DNA of 10,653 nt. Source: Desulfobulbaceae bacterium. GTDB taxonomy: Bacteria > Desulfobacterota > Desulfobulbia > Desulfobulbales > Desulfocapsaceae. The notes below the pieces were generated by a model. It worked only from the letters and a program-made list of their open reading frames with translations. It did no database searches and was not told the DNA's origin. This document shows, piece by piece, positions 1-10,653 of the stretch. The position numbers and the translations under genes were made by a program. Each line of letters begins with the position of its first letter. Positions within the stretch are counted from its first letter, which is position 1. The stretch covers positions 1-10,653 of the forward strand of contig JAUVON010000066.1 in the NCBI GenBank assembly GCA_030599175.1. The letters run 5' to 3'.

Positions 1-121
1 GCTCCAGAACTTTAGTCATAAAAAACAAGAAATCCAGGTAGGTCGTTTAAAATTATATCGTTGAATATACTTCCATAACACTTATCCAACCATTCTGAAA
101 TTCCGATTTATTCGGGTTTAT

Positions 122-262
122 ATGAAAGTCATGTGTAATTTGGAAGGAGAGGGATTCGGAGGGGTGTTGCCACAACAGGTAAGCGAGCCTGTGAGACTCC
201 GATCCACAGCTTGCGAGGACGTTTGGCAACACCCCTTCGAATCCCGGTGATACCACTTTCAT
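122..262. repeat. Long imperfect inverted repeat (about 141 bp)
   Basis: Two 22-base arms, 151-172 and 224-245, are reverse complements with a single difference (G159 opposite T237, a G-U pair in RNA). Both arms begin or end in GGGATTCG/CGAATCCC. A further outer pair, ATGAAAGT at 122-129 and ACTTTCAT at 255-262, flanks them across an asymmetric interior loop. After a one-base bulge the inner stem can continue by three pairs (AAC 174-176 with GTT 221-223). The interior can form a smaller hairpin from CTGTG (189-193) and CACAG (205-209). The structure carries no T-tract, so it is not a simple terminator. It could be a non-autonomous palindromic element (REP or MITE type) or a structured RNA. 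Copy number in the genome is not visible here. Confidence 0.7.
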
Positions 263-309
263 GCTTCGTTGTGAAATGTGTTTCATGGGTGTTAGATAAA
301 ATAACCAGA

Positions 310-340
310 GTTACATTTTTGAATAAAAAATGACTATACT
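310..340 (+). promoter_or_regulatory. Possible weak sigma-70-type promoter
   Basis: TATACT at 335-340 matches five of six bases of a -10 box. GTTACA at 310-315 is a poor -35 candidate with a long 19-base spacer. A start near 347 would leave a leader of only about 16 bases before the ATG at 363, just enough to include the ribosome binding site. This is a weak call. Confidence 0.2.
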
Positions 341-362
341 AAATAGCACTAAGGAGGGTTAC

Positions 363-1109
363 ATGAGAAATCAACGACCAATTATTGGCATAACAACTGT
401 CAACCAAAGGCGGGAAAAAAAAACCTACGCTGTGGTTAGTACTAACTATAGTTCCTCTGTACAATTGGCAGGCGGAACCCCTATTCTCCTGTCACTTTGT
501 GTTAATAAAGAAATTTTAGACAACTACTTAACCATTATGGATGGATTAATTATCACAGGCGGAGATGAAGCGGTAAACCCTCGCTTATATGGAGAAAATC
601 CCATACCTGCTCTTAGATCGACCTGTCCCAGTCGTGATGAATGCGAGACCTACCTCTTCAAAGGCGCACTGGAACAAGACATGCCTGTCCTCGGTATATG
701 CCGTGGCATGCAACTTATGAATGTTGCAGCTGGGGGTGCACTCTACCAGGATATTTTTACCCAAAAACAAAATGTGTTGGGGCATCAGCCAGTTGATATG
801 CCGGTTGATGAACTCTATCATAGCGTCCTGATTCAGAAAGATTCAAGGCTCAGAAATATTTTCAAAAAGAAAGAGCTTATGGTCAATTCTTTCCACCACC
901 AGGCTGTAAAAAAGCTCGCAGCGGATTTTGTCGGAACCGCAATTTCGGAAGACGGAATTATAGAAGCGATGGAACATAGGTACCGCAAATTTGCCATTGG
1001 TGTACAGTGGCATCCTGAGGACCTCACAGCTCGTCATGCCCACTTCCTGGAACTTTTCAAAGCACTGGTCTCAGCATCAGGAAACGTGACTATTCTTGAT
1101 TCACCGTAG
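363..1109 (+). CDS. Gamma-glutamyl-gamma-aminobutyrate hydrolase family protein (class I glutamine amidotransferase-like)
   Basis: Predicted cytosolic cysteine hydrolase of the PuuD / peptidase C26 family, which cleaves gamma-glutamyl amide bonds such as that of gamma-glutamyl-GABA in putrescine breakdown. The 248 residues match the usual length of about 250. The nucleophile-elbow motif GICRGMQ puts the catalytic Cys at residue 113, and GVQWHPED supplies His217 and Glu219, so the triad is complete. The family-typical N-terminal PIIGIT, LIITGGD (62-68) and FHHQAV motifs are present. I chose the ATG at 363 because AAGGAGG (351-357) sits at ideal spacing; an upstream in-frame ATG at 330 has no such site. 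No polyamine genes lie nearby, so the true substrate is uncertain, and other gamma-glutamyl amides are possible. The gene converges with the sigma-54 regulator and appears unrelated to the hdr-met operon. Confidence 0.9.
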   Translation: MRNQRPIIGITTVNQRREKKTYAVVSTNYSSSVQLAGGTPILLSLCVNKEILDNYLTIMDGLIITGGDEAVNPRLYGENPIPALRSTCPSRDECETYLFKGALEQDMPVLGICRGMQLMNVAAGGALYQDIFTQKQNVLGHQPVDMPVDELYHSVLIQKDSRLRNIFKKKELMVNSFHHQAVKKLAADFVGTAISEDGIIEAMEHRYRKFAIGVQWHPEDLTARHAHFLELFKALVSASGNVTILDSP

Positions 1110-1148
1110 GGTTGCCACGGAAAAATACAAAATAATTGTCAGGCAACC
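1110..1148. repeat. Short inverted repeat after the hydrolase stop codon
   Basis: GGTTGCC (1110-1116) and GGCAACC (1142-1148) can form a 7-bp stem enclosing 25 AT-rich bases, beginning one base after the TAG stop. No T-tract follows, so it is a poor intrinsic terminator, though it may protect the mRNA 3' end. The rest of the gap to 1320 shows no gene and no clear terminator for either converging gene. Confidence 0.35.
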
Positions 1149-1320
1149 AGTGGTGCAAGCAAGACACAGAGGATAGCTTCTCCTCCAATATGATTCTTCT
1201 CGAAGTCTGCGCGTATCGGGAGTCTACGCTTACCTACTTATCCATCGAAATTGAAGTTTTTACGAGTTTATCAATAAATTGCCGAATCAAATTTTAACAA
1301 ATTCTTTTCAGCCCGGGACT

Positions 1321-2685
1321 TTATTCTTCTGATATGATTTTCCGTCTGGACTGAAGGTTATACCGTTTCATCCTGTTCCATACAGTGACCCTGGAAACAC
1401 CCAATATTTTAGCAGCTTGTGACTGATTGCCGCCTGACTTCTCCAGGGCTTCCAGAAGTTCGAGCCGTTCAATCTCCTGCATATTGAATGCCCTCTGCTT
1501 CCCCCTGGACTGCACCTTTTTCTGGCGAAAAATGGTTTCCGGAAGATGGCTGGGGTGGATCATATTGGTGTGGCAGGTCACGAATGAGTATTCCAGAGCA
1601 CCTTTTAATTCCCTGACGTTCCCGGGCCAGCTGTGACGCATCAGGATGTCCATGGTATCTTCTCTAATACCATCTATTGCTTTCTCATTTTTCAGTCGCA
1701 TTTTGCGAAAAAATGATTCCACCAGTAATGGAATATCTTCGGCTCTGTCTCGTAGTGATGGCAGAAAGATTGGGATGACATTAATGCGAAAATAAAAATC
1801 TTTTCGAAATTTTCCCTTTTCGACAAGGGTGAGAAGATCTTGATTTGTTGCGGATATAATACGAACGTCAGTAGATATTGGAGCACTGGATCCGACCCGT
1901 TCGATGACTTTTTCTTCAAGGACTCTCAGTAATTTAATCTGGGTCGCCAGCGGCAGATCACCAATTTCGTCAAGAAAGAGATCCCCCTTATCCGCTTTTT
2001 CAAATCGACCTGCCCGATCTTTATAGGCGCCGGTGTAGGCACCTCGCACATGGCCGAACAGCTCGCTCTCAAGGAGCGACTCGGTAAGACTGGCACAATT
2101 GACTTTGATAAAGGGCTTATCTTTTCTGGTACCAATCTCATGGATTGCCCTGCTCACCAGTTCCTTACCGGTGCCACTTTCACCATAAATAATTACAGGG
2201 GCATCGGAATGAGCTGCATTTTCAATCATGTCGAAAACCCGCTGCATGGGAGTCGAGGAGCCGACAATGCCATGGAAATCATTTTCATTGTGCAGTTGCT
2301 CACGATATGCCTTCAGCTGGTTTTCTTTTTCAATTATCTCCGTTAGATCGGTGATCGTACCAACTGTGCCAATGATATTTCCGGTTGTATCTTTCAGTGT
2401 TGCCGTATTTTTCAAGGCGTGAATGTGAGAGCCGTCTTTTTGCCGGATACGGCATTTTCGTTGCTCTGATTCATCGTATGGCGAGATGTCATTCTGCTGG
2501 AAATCGGAACCAAGTATTTTGCAGGTCTGGCCTATTAATTCTTCTCGGGAGTATCCGGTTATCTGCTCAAAAGCCTGATTAATAGAGACAATGGCCCCGC
2601 TGGTGTTGACGATCACAATTCCGTCACGAATAGTGTTGACCACTGTTTTCCAAAAACCATCTAATTCCCGACCGATCATTAGCAT
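1321..2685 (-). CDS. PAS domain sigma-54-dependent transcriptional activator
   Basis: Bacterial enhancer-binding protein of 454 residues that would activate sigma-54 promoters by ATP hydrolysis. Domains in order: a PAS/PAC sensor (about 10-118); a linker likely to form a coiled coil (118-133); an AAA+ domain (about 137-365) with Walker A GESGTGKE (168-175), the sigma-54 contact loop GAYTGA (215-220), Walker B LFLDE (236-240), the RKDFYFRIN segment (294-302) and WPGNVREL (353-360); and a Fis-type helix-turn-helix (about 419-443). The contact loop has Tyr where GAFTGA has Phe, an aromatic swap that should keep function. There is no response-regulator receiver domain, so the signal is probably sensed by the PAS domain, with Cys55 and Cys78 as the cysteines there. 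A second ATG two codons in (first base 2679) has an AGGG seven bases upstream and may be the true start. It is transcribed away from the hdr-met operon and shares its upstream region, so it is the likely operon activator. Confidence 0.93.
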   Translation of the reverse strand: MLMIGRELDGFWKTVVNTIRDGIVIVNTSGAIVSINQAFEQITGYSREELIGQTCKILGSDFQQNDISPYDESEQRKCRIRQKDGSHIHALKNTATLKDTTGNIIGTVGTITDLTEIIEKENQLKAYREQLHNENDFHGIVGSSTPMQRVFDMIENAAHSDAPVIIYGESGTGKELVSRAIHEIGTRKDKPFIKVNCASLTESLLESELFGHVRGAYTGAYKDRAGRFEKADKGDLFLDEIGDLPLATQIKLLRVLEEKVIERVGSSAPISTDVRIISATNQDLLTLVEKGKFRKDFYFRINVIPIFLPSLRDRAEDIPLLVESFFRKMRLKNEKAIDGIREDTMDILMRHSWPGNVRELKGALEYSFVTCHTNMIHPSHLPETIFRQKKVQSRGKQRAFNMQEIERLELLEALEKSGGNQSQAAKILGVSRVTVWNRMKRYNLQSRRKIISEE

Positions 2686-2689
2686 ACCC

Positions 2690-2779
2690 TGTTAAAGCTT
2701 AACACCTGTTAAGAGGCACCTTGTTAACACTTTAACAGTCTCTTAACAGTTTTATGAGAAAATCCAAGGCATCTTAACA
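2690..2779. promoter_or_regulatory. Cluster of seven TTAACA/TGTTAA sites (candidate activator-binding region)
   Basis: The hexamer TTAACA or its complement TGTTAA occurs at 2690-2695, 2699-2704, 2707-2712, 2722-2729 (the palindrome TGTTAACA), 2732-2737, 2743-2748 and 2774-2779. Several pair up as inverted repeats, for example TTAACACCTGTTAA at 2699-2712 and TGTTAA-AGC-TTAACA at 2690-2704. The density is far above chance. Relative to a start near 2918 the cluster spans roughly -230 to -140, a normal range for enhancer sites of sigma-54 activators. The site at 2690-2695 lies just upstream of the regulator's own start codon, which would allow autoregulation. Which protein binds is inferred. Confidence 0.65.
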
Positions 2780-2835
2780 AATTTTTAAATGATTTGGAAC
2801 ACTATTTATACTGTGTACCGCACGTAATTAGTTGT

Positions 2836-2848
2836 TATCAGCCAGTAA
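2836..2848 (+). promoter_or_regulatory. Possible IHF-type bending site
   Basis: TATCAGCCAGTAA resembles the WATCAANNNNTTR consensus with two mismatches. It lies between the candidate enhancer cluster and the sigma-54 promoter, where DNA-bending proteins often act. The match is weak and the surroundings are AT-rich, so it may be chance. Confidence 0.2.
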
Positions 2849-2868
2849 TATAATTAACTGTTTTGTAG

Positions 2869-2885
2869 TATCAGTATAACTGATA
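2869..2885. promoter_or_regulatory. 17-bp palindrome next to the sigma-54 promoter
   Basis: TATCAGT-ATA-ACTGATA is a perfect 7-3-7 inverted repeat. It ends six bases before the -24 element of the sigma-54 promoter. It is unrelated in sequence to the TTAACA sites upstream, so it may be an operator for a second dimeric DNA-binding protein. Its function is inferred from position alone. Confidence 0.45.
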
Positions 2886-2891
2886 TGTGGT

Positions 2892-2907
2892 TGGCCCGTT
2901 TGTTGCT
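2892..2907 (+). promoter_or_regulatory. Sigma-54 (RpoN) promoter, -24/-12 type
   Basis: TGGCCCGTTTGTTGCT matches the consensus TGGCACG-N4-TTGCW at every position but one. The invariant GG (2893-2894) and GC (2905-2906) are separated by exactly 10 bases. Transcription should start near 2918, about 29 bases before the first gene of the operon. A divergent sigma-54 activator lies immediately upstream, which strongly supports the call. Confidence 0.88.
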
Positions 2908-2946
2908 CAATAATAGTAATTTTGAAAAGTAAGGGGTAAATGAACG

Positions 2947-3189
2947 TTGGCAGATAAAACAGACATTGTCATAGATGTAAGGCATTTCGTCTCCTGGTTT
3001 TCCCTGTTGAAAGTAACCCAGGTATTCAGAGAGATGAAGCCATATGACATCCTGGAGGTACGGGGAGCCGATACTGATACGAGAGAAGATCTTTTCAAGG
3101 TCTTGCCTGAATCGACATACCAGATTCTCACAGCAGGTTGTGAGGATGATGACGGTTTTCTTCAGTTTCGAATACAAAAAAATGTGTGA
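2947..3189 (+). CDS. TusA-like small protein lacking the catalytic cysteine
   Basis: An 80-residue protein resembling the TusA/SirA fold, the small sulfur-relay proteins that carry persulfide on a Cys in a CPxP motif. The aligned features are IDVR near the N-terminus (9-12), LLKV leading into the first helix (20-23), the DILEV strand (34-38), and a C-terminal FRIQK strand (74-78). Where TusA has V-CPxP-LLK, this protein has V-SWFS-LLK, so the catalytic Cys is Ser16 and both prolines are gone. The only Cys is Cys65. It is therefore unlikely to be an ordinary sulfurtransferase; a structural or regulatory role in the Hdr complex is possible. The start is TTG at 2947, with AAGGGG at 2931-2936 ten bases upstream; the nearby ATG at 2940 runs into a stop after five codons. 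It is the first gene after the sigma-54 promoter. The fold assignment rests on pattern matching by eye. Confidence 0.7.
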   Translation: MADKTDIVIDVRHFVSWFSLLKVTQVFREMKPYDILEVRGADTDTREDLFKVLPESTYQILTAGCEDDDGFLQFRIQKNV

Positions 3190-3239
3190 TTATATCATTT
3201 ATTTAAATGTGGTCTGGTTAGAACAAAAGGAAAAAACAA

Positions 3240-4562
3240 ATGGCAGAAACCAGCATTAAAATCAGAGGAAAAAAGCAAACCGTATTTAAGGATAAAGTCA
3301 AGGAGATCATCCCCGGTGGTGGCAACCTTGATCTTTGTCTGACTTGCGGCGCATGTGCTTCAGGGTGTCCTGCTTCCGGACTCGAGGACATGGACCCGCG
3401 CAAATTTCTGCGCATGTGTGCTATGGGACTTGATGAAGAGGCAACGAGCAGTCCATGGGTCTGGATGTGTACCATGTGTCAGCGATGCATTTATGTGTGT
3501 CCGATGCAGATAGACATTCCACAGCTTATTTATAATGCTCGGGCAACCTGGCCCCGGGAAGATCGGCCCAAGGGCATCCGTGATTCATGTGATATGGCCC
3601 TTAGAAACGATTCCAACAGTGCTATGGGAACTGCCCCGGATGACTTTGTTTTCGTGGTTGGAGATGTGTTGGATGAATATCGTGAGGCGCAGCCGGAGTT
3701 CAAAGATATGGTTGCCCCGATTGATAAACCGAACACCCAGTTTTTTGTCAATCAGAACTCCAGGGAGCCGAATGTCGAGCCAGATGAGATGGTTCCGTTA
3801 TGGAAAATACTCCACCTTGCCGGAGTTGACTGGACGTATGGCAGTAAGGGGTGGGCTGCAGAAAACTACTGTATGTTCCTGGCAGACGACAAATGCTGGG
3901 ACCACGTAACCCGCGTCTCAGCAAAACAGGCTGACGATCTCGGCTGCAAGGTCTTTCTCAATACAGAGTGAGGACACATCACATTCTCAGTCCGGGCCGG
4001 ACTGAAAAAATTCAATATCGATCATAAATTTGAAGTTGCATCCATCTACCAGTATTACGCTAAGTGGATCCGTGAGGGTCGTCTTAAGGTAAATTCTGAC
4101 TGGAATAAGGATCGTAAGATCACATTCACTATCCAGGATCCCTGCCAGATCGTACGCAAGGGATATGGCGATGAAGTAGCCGATGATTTACGCTTTGTTA
4201 TCAAATCGGTAGTTGGCGAAGAAAACGTTATAGAAATGACACCAAACAAATCGAATAACTACTGCTGTGGCGGTGGTGGTGGTTTCCTGCAATCAGGGTT
4301 TACGGATGCCAGGCGGGAGTACGGCGAACTTAAATACCAGCAGATCATTTCAACTGGTGCAGACTATTGCATTACCGGCTGTCATAACTGCCATGCCCAG
4401 GTTCATGATATGGGACATCACCATGGCGCTGCTTACGGCACAGTACACATATGGACGCTCATCTGTCTTTCGTTGGGCATTCTTGGACCGAATGAACGGG
4501 CGTATCTTGGCGATGATTTGAAAGACGTTGATGTCTTCCATCCTGAATCGTCTCTCTACTAA
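3240..4562 (+). CDS. Selenocysteine-containing HdrC-HdrB fusion (HdrD-like iron-sulfur protein)
   Basis: A 440-residue electron-transfer protein of the heterodisulfide reductase type, with the UGA at 3969-3971 read as Sec244. The HdrC-like N-terminal part has two [4Fe-4S] motifs: Cys33, 36, 39, 43 followed by Pro, and Cys77, 80, 83, 87 followed by Pro. The HdrB-like part has one clear CCG domain: Cys302, Cys342-Cys343-Gly344, and Cys381-x-x-Cys384. The earlier CCG-like half (about 185-260) is degenerate, with Cys211, Cys219, Cys236 and Sec244. Sec sits in a TE-U-GH context where relatives, as I recall them, have Cys. After the UGA the same frame stays open for 197 codons and contains no ATG, GTG or TTG for 264 bases, so the downstream part cannot easily be a separate gene. 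AAGGA at 3227-3231 serves the ATG at 3240. It would pass electrons between HdrA and a substrate or the MetFV core. Standard pipelines will truncate it at 243 residues. It cannot be made full length without selA, selB, selC and selD elsewhere in the genome. Confidence 0.92.
3969..4008 (+). promoter_or_regulatory. UGA selenocysteine codon with bacterial SECIS-like hairpin
   Basis: The in-frame TGA (3969-3971) is followed by CAGTCC (3988-3993) and GGACTG (3999-4004), a perfect 6-bp stem. It extends by a G-C pair inside (3994 with 3998) and a T-A pair outside (3987 with 4005). After a C-A mismatch come two more T-A pairs (3984-3985 with 4007-4008). The apical loop starts with G and begins about 22 bases after the UGA. 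A short stem with a loop G at this distance is the established form of the bacterial SECIS bound by SelB. Confidence 0.85.
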
Positions 4563-4601
4563 CACCAATCTGTCAGCTCTTATCTGGAGGGAAGAAGGTA
4601 T

Positions 4602-5474
4602 ATGAGTTTTCAAAAACGATTATCAGCGAACGAATTTGTTGTATTGGCAGAGATGCATACTCCCAAGGGAGTGAACATCTCCAGACTTGTAAATGATGCC
4701 CGTCGCATGAAAGGGCGAATCGACGCTATTGTCGTACCCGATATGGACAACGGCATCATGCGTATGAGTGCCCTGGCAGGCGGGGTTCTTATGCAGCAAC
4801 AGGGGGTGGAAGCGATCATCCATGTTTATTGCCGGGATCGAAACCGAATGGCACTGCAGGGTGATATGCTGGCAGCATATGTGCTCGGTGTTCAGAATCT
4901 GCTGGTCACCCACAGCGAGGATATCGAACAGAGTGATCACCGGGAGGCGAAGCAGGTTTTTGATCTGGATGAAGTCGAACTTGTTCAGGTTATTGCCACA
5001 CTTAATCAGGGTAAAGATATGGGTGGTTTCGAACTGGACGGGGTTCCTGAGTTTACCGCCGGATGTACTATTGCTCCGTATAGCGATGAAAAAGGCCTTG
5101 CCGGGGAGCTGGAAGCGGCAGCTAAAAAGATTGAAGCTGGAGCGGGATATATAATCACTCCACCGGTTTTTGATCTGGATTCTTTTGCCGGATTTATGGA
5201 GAAGGCAAAAGAGTTGAATGCACCAGTTATTCCCACGGTCTTTCTTCTTAAATCACTTGCCATTGCGCAGTATATCGCGAGAAGTGAGCCCGGTGCCAAT
5301 ATTTCCGAAGATCTGATCAAACGAATCCGCAAATCTTCCGACCGGGAGCTCGAAGGCATCAAAATTGCCGGAGAAACCATTGCGGCACTCAAGGATTTGT
5401 CCCAGGGAGTGATGCTGCAGACACTGGGTTGGGAGCATAAGCTTCCAGAGATCCTTGATATCGCAGGACTCTAA
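4602..5474 (+). CDS. Divergent methylenetetrahydrofolate reductase (MetF) family protein
   Basis: A 290-residue TIM-barrel protein of the MetF family (E. coli MetF has 296 residues), clearly paralogous to the MetF at 9725. The catalytic Glu is kept (Glu17 in LAEMHTP), as are RMSALAG (54-60), QQQG (65-68) and the CRDRNRMALQGD segment (77-88). Two active-site positions differ. The Asp of the usual L-x-G-D motif (E. coli Asp120) aligns with Glu106 in VTHSED, and the folate-contacting Gln of the TQ motif (E. coli Gln183) is Pro187 in IITPP. The protein may bind flavin but use another substrate, or act as a non-catalytic partner in the complex. The ATG at 4602 is preceded by GGAGG and AAGG. It starts 39 bases after the selenoprotein stop and ends 33 bases before the chosen hdrA start. 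Confidence 0.88.
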   Translation: MSFQKRLSANEFVVLAEMHTPKGVNISRLVNDARRMKGRIDAIVVPDMDNGIMRMSALAGGVLMQQQGVEAIIHVYCRDRNRMALQGDMLAAYVLGVQNLLVTHSEDIEQSDHREAKQVFDLDEVELVQVIATLNQGKDMGGFELDGVPEFTAGCTIAPYSDEKGLAGELEAAAKKIEAGAGYIITPPVFDLDSFAGFMEKAKELNAPVIPTVFLLKSLAIAQYIARSEPGANISEDLIKRIRKSSDRELEGIKIAGETIAALKDLSQGVMLQTLGWEHKLPEILDIAGL

Positions 5475-5507
5475 ATTAACCCATTAACTTTGCGGAATAA
5501 AGGTACA

Positions 5508-8500
5508 ATGCAAAATACAAATACATTACAAACGAGCAACAGGGTCCTTGTTGTCGGTGGTGGTCTTGGAGGTATACGGACTGCACTGGACCTGGCTGAA
5601 GCTGAAAAGGATGTTATCCTTGTTGATAAGGCAGAAAATATCGGCGGGCTGATGACCCAGTTGGACAGAACCTTTCCGACCAATAACTGCGACCTGTGCA
5701 CACTTGCCCCGAATCTTTCAGAAAGTGGCAGGCAGGAACATATTTCTCTGCTGTCCATGACGACAGTTCAGGGCGTAACAGGAGAAAAAGGAAACTTTAC
5801 TGTCAGCCTGAAATCGGCACCGCGATATATCAATCTTGATAAATGCACCGGTTGCGGTGCGTGTTATGAAGCATTTCCTGAATGCGTACGTTTCAGTCCG
5901 GGACTTGATCACCGGGCACCTACCTGTATGCGTTACCCTCAGGCCATACCTCAGGCCTACTCTATTGAGCTGGACAAGTGTCAGGATATCGAAGCACTGG
6001 TGAAGAGCTGTCCCGCAGGTGCAATTAACCCTGATGACCTGGGCAGCAGTGGTGACATCTCTTGTAGTGCAATCGTGATGTCGCCCGGGGCTTCTCTGTT
6101 TGATCCAAGCGGCATTGATTACCTCGGCTATTCGGAGCATCCTGATGTGGTAACCAGCCTTGAGTATGAACGTATTCTTTCAGCTTCCGGTCCAACTTCG
6201 GGTCAGCTTCTACGGCCGTCCAACGGTAAGCAGCCGAAAAAAATTGCCTGGATTCAGTGCATTGGCTCCCGTGGACTGCAGAAGGGTGCAGCACCTTACT
6301 GTTCCGGTGCCTGCTGCATGTTTGCTTTAAAAGAGGCCATGGTTACCAAGGAGCGCTTCCAGGAGGATATTGAGACCACTATCTTTTATATGGATATGCG
6401 GACCTTCGGAAAAGATTATGAATTGTATTACCAGCGGGCCAAAGATGACTTCGGCATTCGTTTTATTCATAGTCGTCCCCATAGTATCCTGCGGCAGCCG
6501 GGAGCGGAAAAACTTGAAATGTCTTATACCACAGACGAGTCTTCCAAGCTTATCACCGAAGAATACGATATGGTTGTGCTTTCAACCGGTTTTCGTGTAG
6601 GCGATGACGTTCGAGATCTGGCTGTGAAAATGGGTATTGAACTTAATGAAAGCAATTTTCCCGCACATACCGGTCTTAATCAGATAGCTACCAGTCGACC
6701 GGGAATTTATGTAGCGGGCACCTTTCAAGGCCCTAAAGATATTCCGGAAACAATGGTGCAGGCCAGTGCTGCTGCCTGTCTTGCCGGAAAAGATATAGCT
6801 GCACCCAAAAAGAGTCCTGATACTAAGCCGCTGTTGCCGCCGGAGAAGCATGTGGTTGGTGAAGAACCGAAGGTTGGAGTCTTTATCTGTGACTGTGGTG
6901 AGAACATTGGCGGCGTCATCGATGTCGAGGCTCTTGTTGAGCGTGTTGGGAAGCTGCCGCATGTTGTTGTCGCCCAGGCAGAAGGGCATGGCTGCAGTCG
7001 TGAGTCAATGGATCATATCCGCAGTACCATCAAGGAAAAGGGCATTAATCGGGTGGTCATAGGCGGTTGTTCTCCTCGAACCCACGAAACCAAATTTCAG
7101 GATCTTATTCGTCAGGAAGGACTGAATAAGTACCTTCTTGAAATGGCAAATATCCGGGATCAGGTGACATGGGTTCATGCGCTCCAGCCGGAGAAGGCTG
7201 TTAAGAAAGCGGAAGAGCTCATACGAATGGCAGTTGGCGCCGTAATTAAGGCACAACCCCTTGCAGAACACAGTCTGCCGATTAATAAAAATGTACTTGT
7301 GGTTGGCGGCGGAGTTACCGGCATGACTTCTGCGCTGGAACTTGCTGAGCAGGGCTTTAAGGTCTATCTGGCCGAAAAAAGCCCCGATCTCGGCGGTATT
7401 GCCAGTCAGCTTCGCAAAACCCTGGAAGGGGATGATGTTCAAGCATTTCTGAGCAGCCTGATCGAAAAAACCATGGCAAACGAGAACATCGAAGTGATAA
7501 CCGGGGCAATCATTGTTGACCACTCCGGGATGCCCGGCATGTTTACCACCGGTATGCAGGTAGGCCGACAGATGTTTTATCGTCAGATTGAACATGGGGT
7601 AACAATACTTGCCACCGGCGCCCTGCCGAATCGACCCGAGCAGTTTATGCTTGATGAGTGCAAAGAGGTTGTGACCCAGATCGAGATACAGGTATTGATT
7701 GAGGATCAATCGGAAATCGTCAGGCAGTGGGAAAATGTGGTTATGATCCAGTGCGTTGGCTCGAGAACCAAGGACAACCCCAATTGCTCGAGAATTTGCT
7801 GTCAAAATGCCATAAAGAATTCGTTGAGAATTCTTGAGATCAATCCCGATGCCAGGGTTTTTGTGCTCTACCGTGATATGAGAACGTATGGGTTCCAGGA
7901 AGAGTATTATCAGAAAGCCAGAGAGAAAGGTGTCATTTTTGTTCGCTACCATCAGGATAATCCACCTCAAGTGGCATCAGTTGACGGTAAAGTGGATGTC
8001 AGTTTTACAGACATTATTCTTGGTAGAGAGATTGTGGTCAGTGCAGACTGTCTCTGTTTGAGTACCGGATTGGTTGCTGACCAGGATTCAACGGAAGAAC
8101 TTGCAATGATATTCAAGCTGCCTCGGACCCACGATGGTTTTTTCCTTGAAGATCATGTGAAATTGCGGCCGGTTGATTTGCCGGTCCCCGGTTTTTTTGT
8201 TGCCGGAACTGCCCATTCACCGAAAACTATCAGCGAAAGCCTGGTGCAGGCCAGAGCTGTTGCTTCGCGGGCCCAGACTTTGCTGGCAAAAGAATTTATC
8301 AATCTTGGTGCCGCTACGGCAAAGGTAGACAGCACCCGCTGTGCTTCCTGTCTGATCTGTGTTCGTGCCTGTCCGTTTGATGTGCCGTTTATCAACGCTG
8401 ATGGGTATTCAGAGATTGATCCTGCTAAATGCCATGGCTGCGGAATATGTGCAACTGAATGTCCGGCAAAGGCAATCCAGCTGATGCAGTTTGAGGATGA

Positions 8501-8549
8501 CCAGATTCTCGCCAAGCTGGAGCAACTTTTTGAAGAGGTGGTAGGATAA
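5508..8549 (+). CDS. hdrA: Double-flavin HdrA-type electron-transfer subunit (HdrA-HdrA fusion)
   Basis: FAD-dependent electron hub of 1013 residues, larger than classical HdrA (about 650). Order: first FAD/NAD fold (VVGGGLGG, 15-22) with the HdrA-type C61-x-x-C64 pair after FPT; an inserted ferredoxin segment (110-175); QCIGSR and CSGACC cysteines (251, 265, 269, 270); the HdrA N-terminal-type domain (about 455-585; Cys461, 463, 496, 521); a second FAD fold (VVGGGVTG, 598-605) with QCVGSR (Cys749) and Cys760, 764, 765; and a C-terminal ferredoxin with two complete [4Fe-4S] motifs (Cys945, 948, 951, 955 and 975, 978, 981, 985). The inserted ferredoxin is damaged: CTGCGAC is followed by FP instead of CP (Phe123), and the second motif keeps only Cys158 and Cys168, with Ile161 and Leu164 in place of Cys. 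I chose the ATG at 5508, with AAGG just upstream, over a TTG at 5490 with no binding site. Its TAA overlaps the mvhD ATG. In such complexes HdrA flavin splits or merges electron pairs between ferredoxin and other carriers. Confidence 0.93.
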   Translation: MQNTNTLQTSNRVLVVGGGLGGIRTALDLAEAEKDVILVDKAENIGGLMTQLDRTFPTNNCDLCTLAPNLSESGRQEHISLLSMTTVQGVTGEKGNFTVSLKSAPRYINLDKCTGCGACYEAFPECVRFSPGLDHRAPTCMRYPQAIPQAYSIELDKCQDIEALVKSCPAGAINPDDLGSSGDISCSAIVMSPGASLFDPSGIDYLGYSEHPDVVTSLEYERILSASGPTSGQLLRPSNGKQPKKIAWIQCIGSRGLQKGAAPYCSGACCMFALKEAMVTKERFQEDIETTIFYMDMRTFGKDYELYYQRAKDDFGIRFIHSRPHSILRQPGAEKLEMSYTTDESSKLITEEYDMVVLSTGFRVGDDVRDLAVKMGIELNESNFPAHTGLNQIATSRPGIYVAGTFQGPKDIPETMVQASAAACLAGKDIAAPKKSPDTKPLLPPEKHVVGEEPKVGVFICDCGENIGGVIDVEALVERVGKLPHVVVAQAEGHGCSRESMDHIRSTIKEKGINRVVIGGCSPRTHETKFQDLIRQEGLNKYLLEMANIRDQVTWVHALQPEKAVKKAEELIRMAVGAVIKAQPLAEHSLPINKNVLVVGGGVTGMTSALELAEQGFKVYLAEKSPDLGGIASQLRKTLEGDDVQAFLSSLIEKTMANENIEVITGAIIVDHSGMPGMFTTGMQVGRQMFYRQIEHGVTILATGALPNRPEQFMLDECKEVVTQIEIQVLIEDQSEIVRQWENVVMIQCVGSRTKDNPNCSRICCQNAIKNSLRILEINPDARVFVLYRDMRTYGFQEEYYQKAREKGVIFVRYHQDNPPQVASVDGKVDVSFTDIILGREIVVSADCLCLSTGLVADQDSTEELAMIFKLPRTHDGFFLEDHVKLRPVDLPVPGFFVAGTAHSPKTISESLVQARAVASRAQTLLAKEFINLGAATAKVDSTRCASCLICVRACPFDVPFINADGYSEIDPAKCHGCGICATECPAKAIQLMQFEDDQILAKLEQLFEEVVG

Positions 8550-8968
8550 TGGAAAATTTTGAACCAGTAATTGTGGCGTTCTGCTGCCACTATTGTGCAT
8601 ATACGGCTGCGGATATGGCCGGCAGTCAAAGACTCCCTTATCCGTCCAATGTGAAAATAATTCGCGTACCCTGTTCCGGCAAGGTAGACGCCCTGCATAT
8701 CACCAAGGCCTTTGAGAAAGGAGCAGACGGTGTGTATGTTGCAGGGTGCCTGGATGGTGACTGTCATTTCAAGAACGGCAATGACAAAGCTGCCAAGCTG
8801 GTTACCTATGTGCAGAATTATCTTGAGGAAATAGGCCTTGAACCCGAACGGCTGGAGATGGTCAGAATTTCGGCCGGTATGGGGGATAGATTTGCACTTA
8901 TTGCAACGGAAATAACAGAGAAGATACGTAAACTGGGTCCCAGTCCGATTAAAACTGTTGCGGCTTAG
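8549..8968 (+). CDS. mvhD: MvhD/FlpD-family [2Fe-2S] electron-transfer subunit
   Basis: A 139-residue protein of the MvhD (methyl-viologen-reducing hydrogenase delta) family, at the usual length. The family signatures are FCCHYCAYTAADMAG (Cys12, 13, 16), VPCSGKVD (Cys42) and GCLDGDCHFKNGN (Cys67, Cys72); these cysteines include the [2Fe-2S] cluster ligands. In known complexes MvhD is the adaptor that carries electrons between HdrA and a hydrogenase, formate dehydrogenase or similar electron donor. No such donor is encoded in this window, so the partner is unknown. The start codon overlaps the hdrA stop by one base (TAATG), which indicates translational coupling. Confidence 0.94.
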   Translation: MENFEPVIVAFCCHYCAYTAADMAGSQRLPYPSNVKIIRVPCSGKVDALHITKAFEKGADGVYVAGCLDGDCHFKNGNDKAAKLVTYVQNYLEEIGLEPERLEMVRISAGMGDRFALIATEITEKIRKLGPSPIKTVAA

Positions 8969-8978
8969 CCATAGGAAC

Positions 8979-9003
8979 TGTCAGAGATGTCTATTCTCAG
9001 ACA
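8979..9003 (+). other. Intra-operon hairpin between mvhD and metV
   Basis: TGTCAGAGA (8979-8987) and TCTCAGACA (8995-9003) form a nine-pair stem with one A-A mismatch and a 7-base loop. It lies in the only long gap (91 bases) of the otherwise compact part of the operon downstream of hdrA. No T-tract follows, so it is not an obvious terminator. An mRNA processing or stability element is possible. AAGGAG near 9042 serves metV. Confidence 0.4.
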
Positions 9004-9059
9004 ACCTCCACTGCGGCACCAACTGTAATGACGGAACATAAGAAGGAGAAAGAACCACA

Positions 9060-9728
9060 ATGATTACGGCTGAACGGAAACCTTTGGAAGAAATTATAGA
9101 ATACATCAAGCCTTTTAAACGTATTCTGCTGCTTGGTTGCAACGAGTGTGTCACTGTATGTGCTGCAGGGGGTCGCAAGGAAGTCGGGCTGCTCGCCTCA
9201 GGATTGCAGCTGGCTCTGTTGAAAAGTGGCAGCAGTATCGAAATCCGGGAGCATACCCTTGAGCGGCAATGCGATCCGGAGTATGTGGAAGAGCTTGTAC
9301 CCATGATTGGCAGTGAAGAAGCCATTTTGTCCATGGCATGCGGGTGCGGTGTACAGCAGCTGGCCACACGGTTTAAGGATAAACCGGTCTTTCCTGCTTT
9401 AAACACCAAGTTCATGGGAGGATCTTTGAGTCAGGGCATGTGGGATGAACGGTGCAAGGGCTGCGGCGACTGTCTGCTAGGCTTAACTGGAGGGATCTGC
9501 CCCATCGCCAAATGCGCCAAGCAATTGATGAACGGGCCTTGTGGCGGTTCCACCGACGGCAAATGTGAAATCAGCGATGATGTTGAATGCGCCTGGCAGC
9601 TGATCTGGAACAGACTCAAGGCCCTTGGCCAGGAGGATAGATTTCTTGATATAATGCCTGCGAAAGATTGGCGATCTGGGGGAGGAGGTGGACCCCGTAA
9701 GATTATTAGAGAGGACTTAGCAGAATGA
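9060..9728 (+). CDS. metV: MetV: iron-sulfur/zinc partner subunit of methylene-THF reductase
   Basis: A 222-residue cysteine-rich protein of the MetV type (methylene-tetrahydrofolate reductase C-terminal domain family), the partner that MetF needs in acetogens. The N-terminal half has Cys27, Cys30 and Cys34 (GCNECVTVC), and Cys94 and Cys96 (ACGC). The C-terminal half has CKGCGDC (Cys132, 135, 138), CPIAKC (Cys147, 152), the diagnostic NGPCGG (Cys161) and Cys169 and Cys177. This is enough for the two [4Fe-4S] clusters reported for MetV proteins or for a cluster plus zinc. It probably delivers electrons from the Hdr module to the MetF flavin. The stop overlaps the metF start (ATGA), so the two should be made in equal amounts. 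A glycine-rich stretch (207-211) near the C-terminus looks like a flexible tail. Confidence 0.92.
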   Translation: MITAERKPLEEIIEYIKPFKRILLLGCNECVTVCAAGGRKEVGLLASGLQLALLKSGSSIEIREHTLERQCDPEYVEELVPMIGSEEAILSMACGCGVQQLATRFKDKPVFPALNTKFMGGSLSQGMWDERCKGCGDCLLGLTGGICPIAKCAKQLMNGPCGGSTDGKCEISDDVECAWQLIWNRLKALGQEDRFLDIMPAKDWRSGGGGGPRKIIREDLAE

Positions 9729-10651
9729 AAACAGAGAGCAATTTAGAAAAAGTATTAGCCGCGGGACATCTGGCAGTAACTTCGGAATGTGGTCCTCCCC
9801 GCGGGGCGGTAGCTAAGGAATTAACAGACAAAGCTAAATATCTGGAAGGCGTTGTCGATGCTGTCAATGTCACAGATAATCAGACTGCCATGGTGCGGAT
9901 GTCAAGTCTGGCCGGTTCAGTACTTATAAAACAACAGGGGATGCATCCTCTGCTACAGGTGGTTACCCGCGATCGCAATCGTCTGGCCATTCAGGCGGAT
10001 ATCCTTGGAGCGTATTCTTTAGGGATTGATACCATGCTCTGCCTGTCTGGAGATCACACAAAGTTCGGCGATCATCCCATGGCGGCAAATGTCCATGACA
10101 TTGATTCGATCCAGCTTATTCAGATGGTCAAGGGTATGCGCGATGAATCTAAATTCCAGGGAGGATCAGATATAAAAGGTGCTCCAAAAATGTTCATCGG
10201 TGCAGCAGCCAATCCCTTTGCGGATCCTTTTGAACTGAGGGTGATGCGTCTGGCCAAGAAAATTGCAGCCGGAGTCGATTTTATTCAGACCCAGTGTATT
10301 TTCAATGTCGAAAAGTTTGAGCTCTGGATGGAAGGCGTGCGTAAAATGGGATTGCATAAAAAATGTTACATCCTGGCGGGAGTGACACCCATGAAATCAG
10401 TCGGTGCTGCCCGCTACATGAAGAACAGGGTTCCGGGAATGGATGTGCCGACAGATGTCGTTGAACGTATGGCCAGTGTTCCCAAGGAAAAACAACCGGA
10501 AGAAGGTGTAGATATCTGTATCGAAACCATTGAGCGTCTGAAAAAAGTTGAAGGGGTCGCTGGTTTTCATATCATGGCAATAGAATGGGAAGAGAAGGTG
10601 GAAGAGATCGTTAGACGAGCAGGCCTATACCCCAGACCAGAAATCAGCTGA
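9725..10651 (+). CDS. metF: Methylenetetrahydrofolate reductase
   Basis: FAD-dependent interconversion of 5,10-methylene-THF and 5-methyl-THF in the methyl branch of the Wood-Ljungdahl pathway, which can run either way in sulfate reducers. The 308 residues match the family. Key positions are intact: Glu21 (TSECGPP, E. coli Glu28), Asp110 (CLSGDH, E. coli Asp120) and Gln190 (IQTQ, E. coli Gln183). RMSSLAG (58-64) and TRDRNRLAIQAD (81-92) are typical of MetV-dependent MetF proteins. Electrons probably come through MetV rather than by direct NAD(P)H binding; this is inferred from the context. The gene ends two bases before the window edge, so later operon genes, if any, are out of view. Confidence 0.95.
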   Translation: MKTESNLEKVLAAGHLAVTSECGPPRGAVAKELTDKAKYLEGVVDAVNVTDNQTAMVRMSSLAGSVLIKQQGMHPLLQVVTRDRNRLAIQADILGAYSLGIDTMLCLSGDHTKFGDHPMAANVHDIDSIQLIQMVKGMRDESKFQGGSDIKGAPKMFIGAAANPFADPFELRVMRLAKKIAAGVDFIQTQCIFNVEKFELWMEGVRKMGLHKKCYILAGVTPMKSVGAARYMKNRVPGMDVPTDVVERMASVPKEKQPEEGVDICIETIERLKKVEGVAGFHIMAIEWEEKVEEIVRRAGLYPRPEIS

Positions 10652-10653
10652 TA

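Follow-up and report, generated by a model that had tools for sequence, protein, structure and literature searches.

A probable selenocysteine-containing HdrC-HdrB fusion protein encoded beside methylene-tetrahydrofolate reductase genes in a Desulfobulbaceae bacterium

The gene described here lies on contig JAUVON010000066.1 of a Desulfobulbaceae draft genome (GCA_030599175.1), of which positions 1 to 10,653 were analysed as a whole (hereafter the window). It encodes an HdrC-HdrB fusion whose reading frame contains one UGA, at codon 244, and the conservation of this codon among relatives indicates that it is almost certainly decoded as selenocysteine (Sec). The fusion probably acts as the disulfide- or chalcogen-active end of an Hdr-type methylene-tetrahydrofolate (methylene-THF) reductase system. 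The features on which the first of these statements depends are the following.

3240..4562, plus strand: gene of the predicted HdrC-HdrB fusion selenoprotein, 440 amino acids with Sec predicted at the UGA of codon 244 (from the translation, its Fer4 and CCG domains and the 81-gene alignment).
3969..3971, plus strand: UGA codon for the predicted Sec244, in a TE-U-GH motif (U in 58 and C in 23 of 81 aligned genes; U in 80 of 80 named relatives).
3987..4005, plus strand: hairpin resembling a selenocysteine insertion sequence (SECIS), with an 8-bp stem (3987-3994/3998-4005) and a loop at 3995-3997 (folding, covariation and recoding tests).

The frame opens with ATG at 3240, holds a single in-frame TGA (3969-3971) and closes with TAA at 4560-4562, which gives 440 residues. 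An HdrC-type double Fer4 part occupies residues 30-91 (PF13183) and a CCG part residues 297-388 (PF02754), both above cut-off, and the motif around Sec244 reads TEUGH, that is, UGH in a protein with Fer4 and CCG parts. The original prediction, made from the letters of the window, held that the frame continues unbroken past the UGA with a CCG motif, and that no alternative start codon follows for 264 bases. Both statements stand: the frame is open to its TAA with the CCG part located 3' of the TGA, and the next in-frame ATG, GTG or TTG is at 4236, 264 nucleotides downstream.

A phylum-wide search covered 395 genomes, 109 of which had a match at E 1e-60 or better, and most of the 150 matches listed carry one TGA. 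An alignment was built from the window gene and 80 genes chosen out of the 149 other listed matches, covering the higher-scoring ones almost entirely and the lower ones by selection. At position 244 the 81 genes have UGA in 58 cases and Cys in 23, and no other residue; Sec is thus the majority state in the sampled genes, and the Cys/Sec mixture expected by the original prediction is borne out. A second set comprises the best 80 of 570 named relatives, at 72-98% identity, all of which have UGA at this position. It is biased toward UGA because its query alignment was built from UGA genes only, and it overlaps the 81-gene set by at least one contig. Isolates in this set include Desulfofustis glycolicus DSM 9705 and Desulforhopalus singaporensis DSM 12130; its closest member is Desulfobulbaceae bacterium UBA2775 (98% identity, UGA). 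Homologues ending at residue 243, which would have spoken for a true stop, occur in neither of the two translated sets.

The 120 listed of 2395 database proteins, by contrast with these translated genes, all have Cys at 244, and the row of the query itself is displayed as C. I read this as a consequence of ordinary gene calling, which ends at UGA; the UGA members of the family would then have been overlooked, though UGA outnumbers Cys among the genes sampled. The all-Cys database relatives, together with the draft state of the assembly, are what could be said for an error of sequencing, a mutated pseudogene or a genuine stop followed by a separate CCG gene. Such an origin of the TGA is barely conceivable, given the same-register UGA in 57 further genes of the 81-gene set and in the 80 named relatives (with the overlap just mentioned), the covarying hairpin after the UGA and the lack of a start codon in the 264 nucleotides that follow. 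Error and pseudogene are ruled out by the recurrence of the UGA in relatives. The genome itself also encodes a Cys paralogue at 59% identity (contig C67) and a second Sec member (contig C419). On a quick tree of 95 proteins (site 244 masked; long branches, 25 weak forks), the Sec/Cys label requires 11 changes, at least 10 of them by well-supported branches. These natural swaps at one site beside a predicted unusual cluster would make the role of the chalcogen directly testable.

The original prediction also placed a perfect 6-bp stem at SECIS distance after the UGA. A hairpin is indeed found there, starting 15 nucleotides after the UGA, but its stem has eight Watson-Crick pairs, not six, closed by a 3-nucleotide loop. 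In the window alone its significance is moderate: an equal or better fold is reached by 7 of 200 dinucleotide shuffles, and all eight pairs by 275 of 20,000 sequences that encode the same peptide with synonymous codons, so that the hairpin by itself was discarded as proof. The comparison across UGA and Cys genes puts it far outside chance expectation. The synonymous-recoding test gives P<0.05 in 45 of 58 UGA genes versus 2 of 23 Cys genes; the mean number of pairs out of eight is 6.9 versus 3.8, two Cys genes reaching seven; and the 48 nucleotides after codon 244 fold on average at -13.7 versus -8.8 kcal/mol, with a Mann-Whitney p of 8.6e-8 that is merely indicative because the rows are related. 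All 80 named relatives form seven or eight pairs.

Covariation points the same way. In a closer set of 31 distinct UGA genes, 93.5% of cells pair, versus 8.5-41.5% when the partner is slid by 1-3 nucleotides, and there are 18 double-changed cells versus 4.7 in shuffles; for the whole set the figures are 86.0% paired, slid controls of at most 52.0%, and 64 double-changed cells versus 27.4. Two measures are weaker: the count of pairs changed on both sides is matched by 7 of 500 shuffles in the closer set and 77 of 500 in the whole set, and for further pair types 274 and 487 of 500 shuffles, respectively, do so. Ten of the 58 UGA genes, all in a distant group at about 35% identity, form no more than 2-5 pairs in the exact register; six of these make the stem in a shifted position, with a single base bulged out, and in four the stem is not the minimum-energy fold. 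An Rfam search of the window returned no SECIS family, its three matches lying elsewhere and below gathering scores. Taken together, these comparisons indicate that UGA genes have maintained the hairpin through compensatory changes and that most Cys genes lack it.

The machinery for Sec was sought in the draft genome (2.9 megabases in 430 contigs, 86.8% complete), as the original prediction had advised for selA, selB, selC and selD. The last three are present above cut-off: tRNA-Sec (selC) at 77.2 bits, selB at 368 bits and two selD genes at 361.2 and 338.3 bits; selA, which was not found, is weighed further below. Both selD genes carry UGA at residue 10-11 of the match, which I take to be the catalytic position. 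These two genes, together with pieces of a third selD, are on contigs C44, C185 and C369.

The setting of the fusion gene is an operon of same-strand genes, as follows.

2947..3189, plus strand: small TusA-like protein encoded at the start of the operon (24.7 bits with PF01206, under its cut-off of 28.6; found in 20 of 80 named relatives).
4602..5474, plus strand: MetF-like protein of the methylene-THF reductase family, divergent, 290 amino acids (PF02219; its gene immediately follows the fusion gene in 27 of 80 named relatives).
5490..8549, plus strand: HdrA-like flavoprotein, 1019 amino acids (FAD/NAD-binding matches in both halves).
8549..8968, plus strand: MvhD/FlpD (PF02662).
9060..9728, plus strand: MetV, methylene-THF reductase C-terminal family (PF12225).
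9725..10651, plus strand: MetF methylene-THF reductase (PF02219), called MetF2 in the counts below.

All members of the Hdr-type MetVF gene set (metV, metF, hdrA, hdrBC and mvhD) therefore lie in one cluster, and the fusion quite likely belongs to a MetVF-Hdr system. Same-strand flanks of the 80 named loci contain HdrA in 56, MetV in 44, MetF2 in 41, the MetF-like gene in 28 and the TusA-like gene in 20 cases; 18 loci have TusA-like, MetF-like and HdrA genes together. Where at least 6 kilobases are available on both sides, MetF2 is found in 25 of 35 loci. In the 81-gene set MetF2 is near 12 of 58 Sec genes (the window included) versus none of 23 Cys genes, the flanks being unequal; the flank of one Cys locus ends in a partial MetV. 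The gene order of the window is repeated in a further locus (L066). The MetFV-Hdr operon announced by the original prediction is thus present and recurrent, although it is missing from some relatives. The operon holds two MetF-family genes, which score 88.6 bits (the first) and 126.5 bits (9725-10651) with PF02219. The TusA-like protein lacks the CP motif.

A Sec-containing GlpC was described in 2006, with an operon glpC-hdrA-frhD-frhG-frhA and five selenoproteins (PMC1794560); a 2026 review has an entry 'Fe-S oxidoreductase-like, UGH' and regards the interactions within the glpC operon as unclear (PMC13188914). This Fe-S oxidoreductase-like GlpC (COG0247, PTHR43551) likewise has UGH, occurs in Deltaproteobacteria and neighbours hdrA and frhD/mvhD (PMC1794560, PMC13188914, PMC9312934). 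Its published operon includes frhG-frhA, whereas no hydrogenase alpha subunit is found among the window proteins scanned, the partners being MetF-like, MetV and MetF. HdrD4 of Desulfobacterium autotrophicum HRM2, compared by description, is likewise a soluble Sec-containing HdrC-HdrB fusion in a sulfate reducer (PMC2702500). Both proteins confirm the earlier statement that Sec-containing Fe-S oxidoreductases had already been reported.

The protein is accordingly a member of a known family of UGH-motif selenoproteins, and the folate setting is absent from the cited passages on that family. What is less familiar is this setting and the predicted place of the selenium beside an unusual iron-sulfur cluster. 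The gene set itself has counterparts in the MetVF-HdrCBA-MvhD clusters of Moorella and Sporomusa, and a fused HdrC-HdrB is found in marine Chloroflexi too (PMC9430772, PMC5736913); the window differs from the Moorella and Sporomusa clusters by an HdrCB of Sec type with a degenerate first half, and by the extra MetF-like and TusA-like genes. HdrABC has also been described beside metF in seep sulfate reducers, in a paper whose main text does not contain the word 'selenocysteine' (PMC10553843). Among open-licence papers, a literature search found no report joining a Sec-type HdrCB to MetVF.

DsrK, TmcB and HmcF belong to the same overall CCG protein group, Sec here taking the place of Cys. Their NCBIfam scores, the best obtained, are 87.6, 154.1 and 150 bits, far below the cut-offs of 400, 735 and 750, and GlpC in the strict sense (TIGR03379) scores 32.3 bits, below its cut-off of 279.9. 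Filing the protein as HdrB, DsrK, TmcB, HmcF or GlpC in the strict sense was rejected, as each misses a defining test. A DsrK-like fragment in the same genome, cut by a contig edge and at 265 bits also under the cut-off of 400, has Cys in a corresponding ECGH motif.

As to the cluster sites, HdrB of methanogens (5ODC) carries two noncubane clusters (PMC13083937). The structural model here has the double CCG fold of HdrB, but the two complete CCG cluster motifs are not both there: the C-terminal one, which consists of five Cys (C302, C342, C343, C381 and C384), is complete in 81 of 81 genes, and it alone can be set against the two clusters of methanogen HdrBC. In the N-terminal half, aligned to EtfD, all cluster ligands are lost except residue 244, the other positions being W198, residue 166, which is not Cys, and residue 247, which varies. 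By this alignment an ordinary N-terminal cluster is impossible because of these residues, and an N-terminal noncubane cluster is ruled out by the lost ligands. C211 was also dismissed as part of an N-terminal CC pair, for the profile alignment has W198-T199 there and residue 211 is Cys in 60 of 81 genes. EtfD (9OJN) is membrane-bound, and its Cys581 ligates a linear [3Fe-4S] cluster, D1 (PMC13083937), the ligands of which are lost here save residue 244. Residue 244 aligns with Cys581, and H246 matches His583, a noncubane-cluster ligand of EtfD. The original prediction had left Sec as either a non-standard cluster ligand or a redox residue, and this choice is narrowed by the alignment, which leaves the N-terminal half without an ordinary cluster.

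Sec244 could itself ligate the C-terminal noncubane cluster, or a small cluster lying between the two halves, and tune its potential with no covalent substrate chemistry. Its alignment with a D1 ligand and the constant Cys or Sec at 244 in the 81 genes agree with such a role, which is nevertheless rather improbable, for the remaining D1 positions (W198, 166, 247) are non-Cys or variable, no ordinary N-terminal cluster can form, and the C-terminal half already holds the five Cys of a noncubane cluster.

In the reading preferred here, UGA 244 would be decoded by SelB, tRNA-Sec and the adjacent hairpin, and the protein would work with HdrA, MvhD, MetV and MetF. Electrons would move between the flavins of HdrA and the pair of cubane clusters in the HdrC half, and on to the single C-terminal noncubane cluster held by the five Cys. 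Sec244 would be the last chalcogen of the N-terminal CCG half, beside H246, which by analogy to EtfD His583 may contact the cluster. The cluster and the selenol would stand in for the two facing noncubane clusters of HdrB, and the pair would break or make an S-S or Se-S bond in a partner, DsrC being a candidate. I infer the partner, the direction of flow, the selenenylsulfide chemistry, the physical complex and the distance from Sec to cluster, and the facing-selenol chemistry is put forward tentatively, at somewhat less than even chances. Ferredoxin-thioredoxin reductase works with a cluster plus a disulfide. More speculative still is the wider proposal that many sulfate reducers have a selenium-dependent methylene-THF reductase in which the two-cluster site of HdrB is rebuilt as one noncubane cluster facing the Sec244 selenol, which would amount to a third Fe-S-assisted dichalcogenide chemistry next to those of HdrB and ferredoxin-thioredoxin reductase. 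Should it be true, selenium supply would bear on the methyl branch of one-carbon metabolism in carriers of the operon.

Several observations weigh against the preferred reading. The model was made without cofactors, and the histidine of EtfD has been read as rendering its cluster non-catalytic (PMC13083937), which speaks against substrate chemistry at the cluster. No selA was found in the 86.8% complete draft, by family or protein search, an assembly gap being the likeliest reason; selA is found in 29 of 30 related genomes, the exception being G392. Of eight genomes from named relatives, seven have selA and all eight have tRNA-Sec. The one without a selA match, by family or protein search, is Desulfosediminicola flagellatus IMCC35005 (L146, G398), titled a complete genome, which has the Sec gene and tRNA-Sec. 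As for the operon, 39 of 80 named loci have no MetF2 in the flank, many of these flanks being short, and some relatives keep HdrA-MvhD without MetF; the protein is therefore taken as a module with several partners. Finally, because the three other genomes of the same family in the phylum search (G339, G357 and G376) hold only distant relatives (best 52-53% identity), the place of the contig in its bin rests on the assembly; the Sec reading is independent of it.

The protein might also be a plain electron wire in which Sec merely guards the site from oxidation and no disulfide is processed. Many relatives use Cys, the label has switched repeatedly, and the homologous clusters of EtfD are read as non-catalytic, all of which suits a wire. 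The sampled lineages are generally anaerobes, however, and Sec is the commoner state there despite its cost (58 of 81), so that a mere wire is improbable. Equally doubtful is that the partner disulfide is that of DsrC or a DsrC trisulfide, the complex linking methylene-THF chemistry to sulfite reduction. TmcB, HmcF and DsrK give the best NCBIfam scores, the DsrK-like fragment of the genome carries the matching Cys of ECGH, and TmcB/HdrB-like CCG proteins are predicted partners of DsrC (PMC10553843). Yet no DsrC is found among the nine window proteins scanned, and the scores for TmcB, HmcF and DsrK fall far short of the curated thresholds.

A subfamily at about 35% identity has a helix-turn-helix (HTH) fused in frame before the Fer4 and CCG parts. 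HTH-fused Sec members are those of C419 (L215:1492-2934, minus strand), L121, L122, L123 and L128, and Cys members those of L125 and L131; HdrA and MvhD homologues lie downstream in the six loci of the L12x and L13x series. Pfam HTH_17 is above cut-off in 4 of 5 members scanned, L128 being slightly below. The members with Sec would be redox proteins that bind DNA and contain selenocysteine. On this subfamily the literature search found nothing among open-licence papers.

Two further features precede the operon.

2892..2907, plus strand: sigma-54 (-24/-12) promoter-like site, TGGCCCG-N4-TTGCT (best-site scores over 18 loci).
1321..2685, minus strand: divergent PAS sigma-54-dependent activator (PF00158, PF02954, PF13426), with a homologue in the same place in many window-type loci.

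Scored on the sigma-54 -24/-12 consensus, the best site before the TusA-like gene reaches at least 9 of 12 in 17 of 18 loci and at least 10 in 13 (620 nucleotides scanned per locus); of 500 mononucleotide shuffles of the 261-nucleotide gap in the window, 42 reach 9 and 2 reach 10. Several TTAACA/TGTTAA half-sites lie between activator and promoter-like site, at about 2686-2790. At 158-238 the window has an inverted repeat with 15-nucleotide arms, one mismatch and a spacer of 51, and a weak Rfam miRNA match. A search with shorter arms (spacer 20-50), a pattern outside which the window copy falls, gave one similar repeat elsewhere in the genome (C22:42-90).
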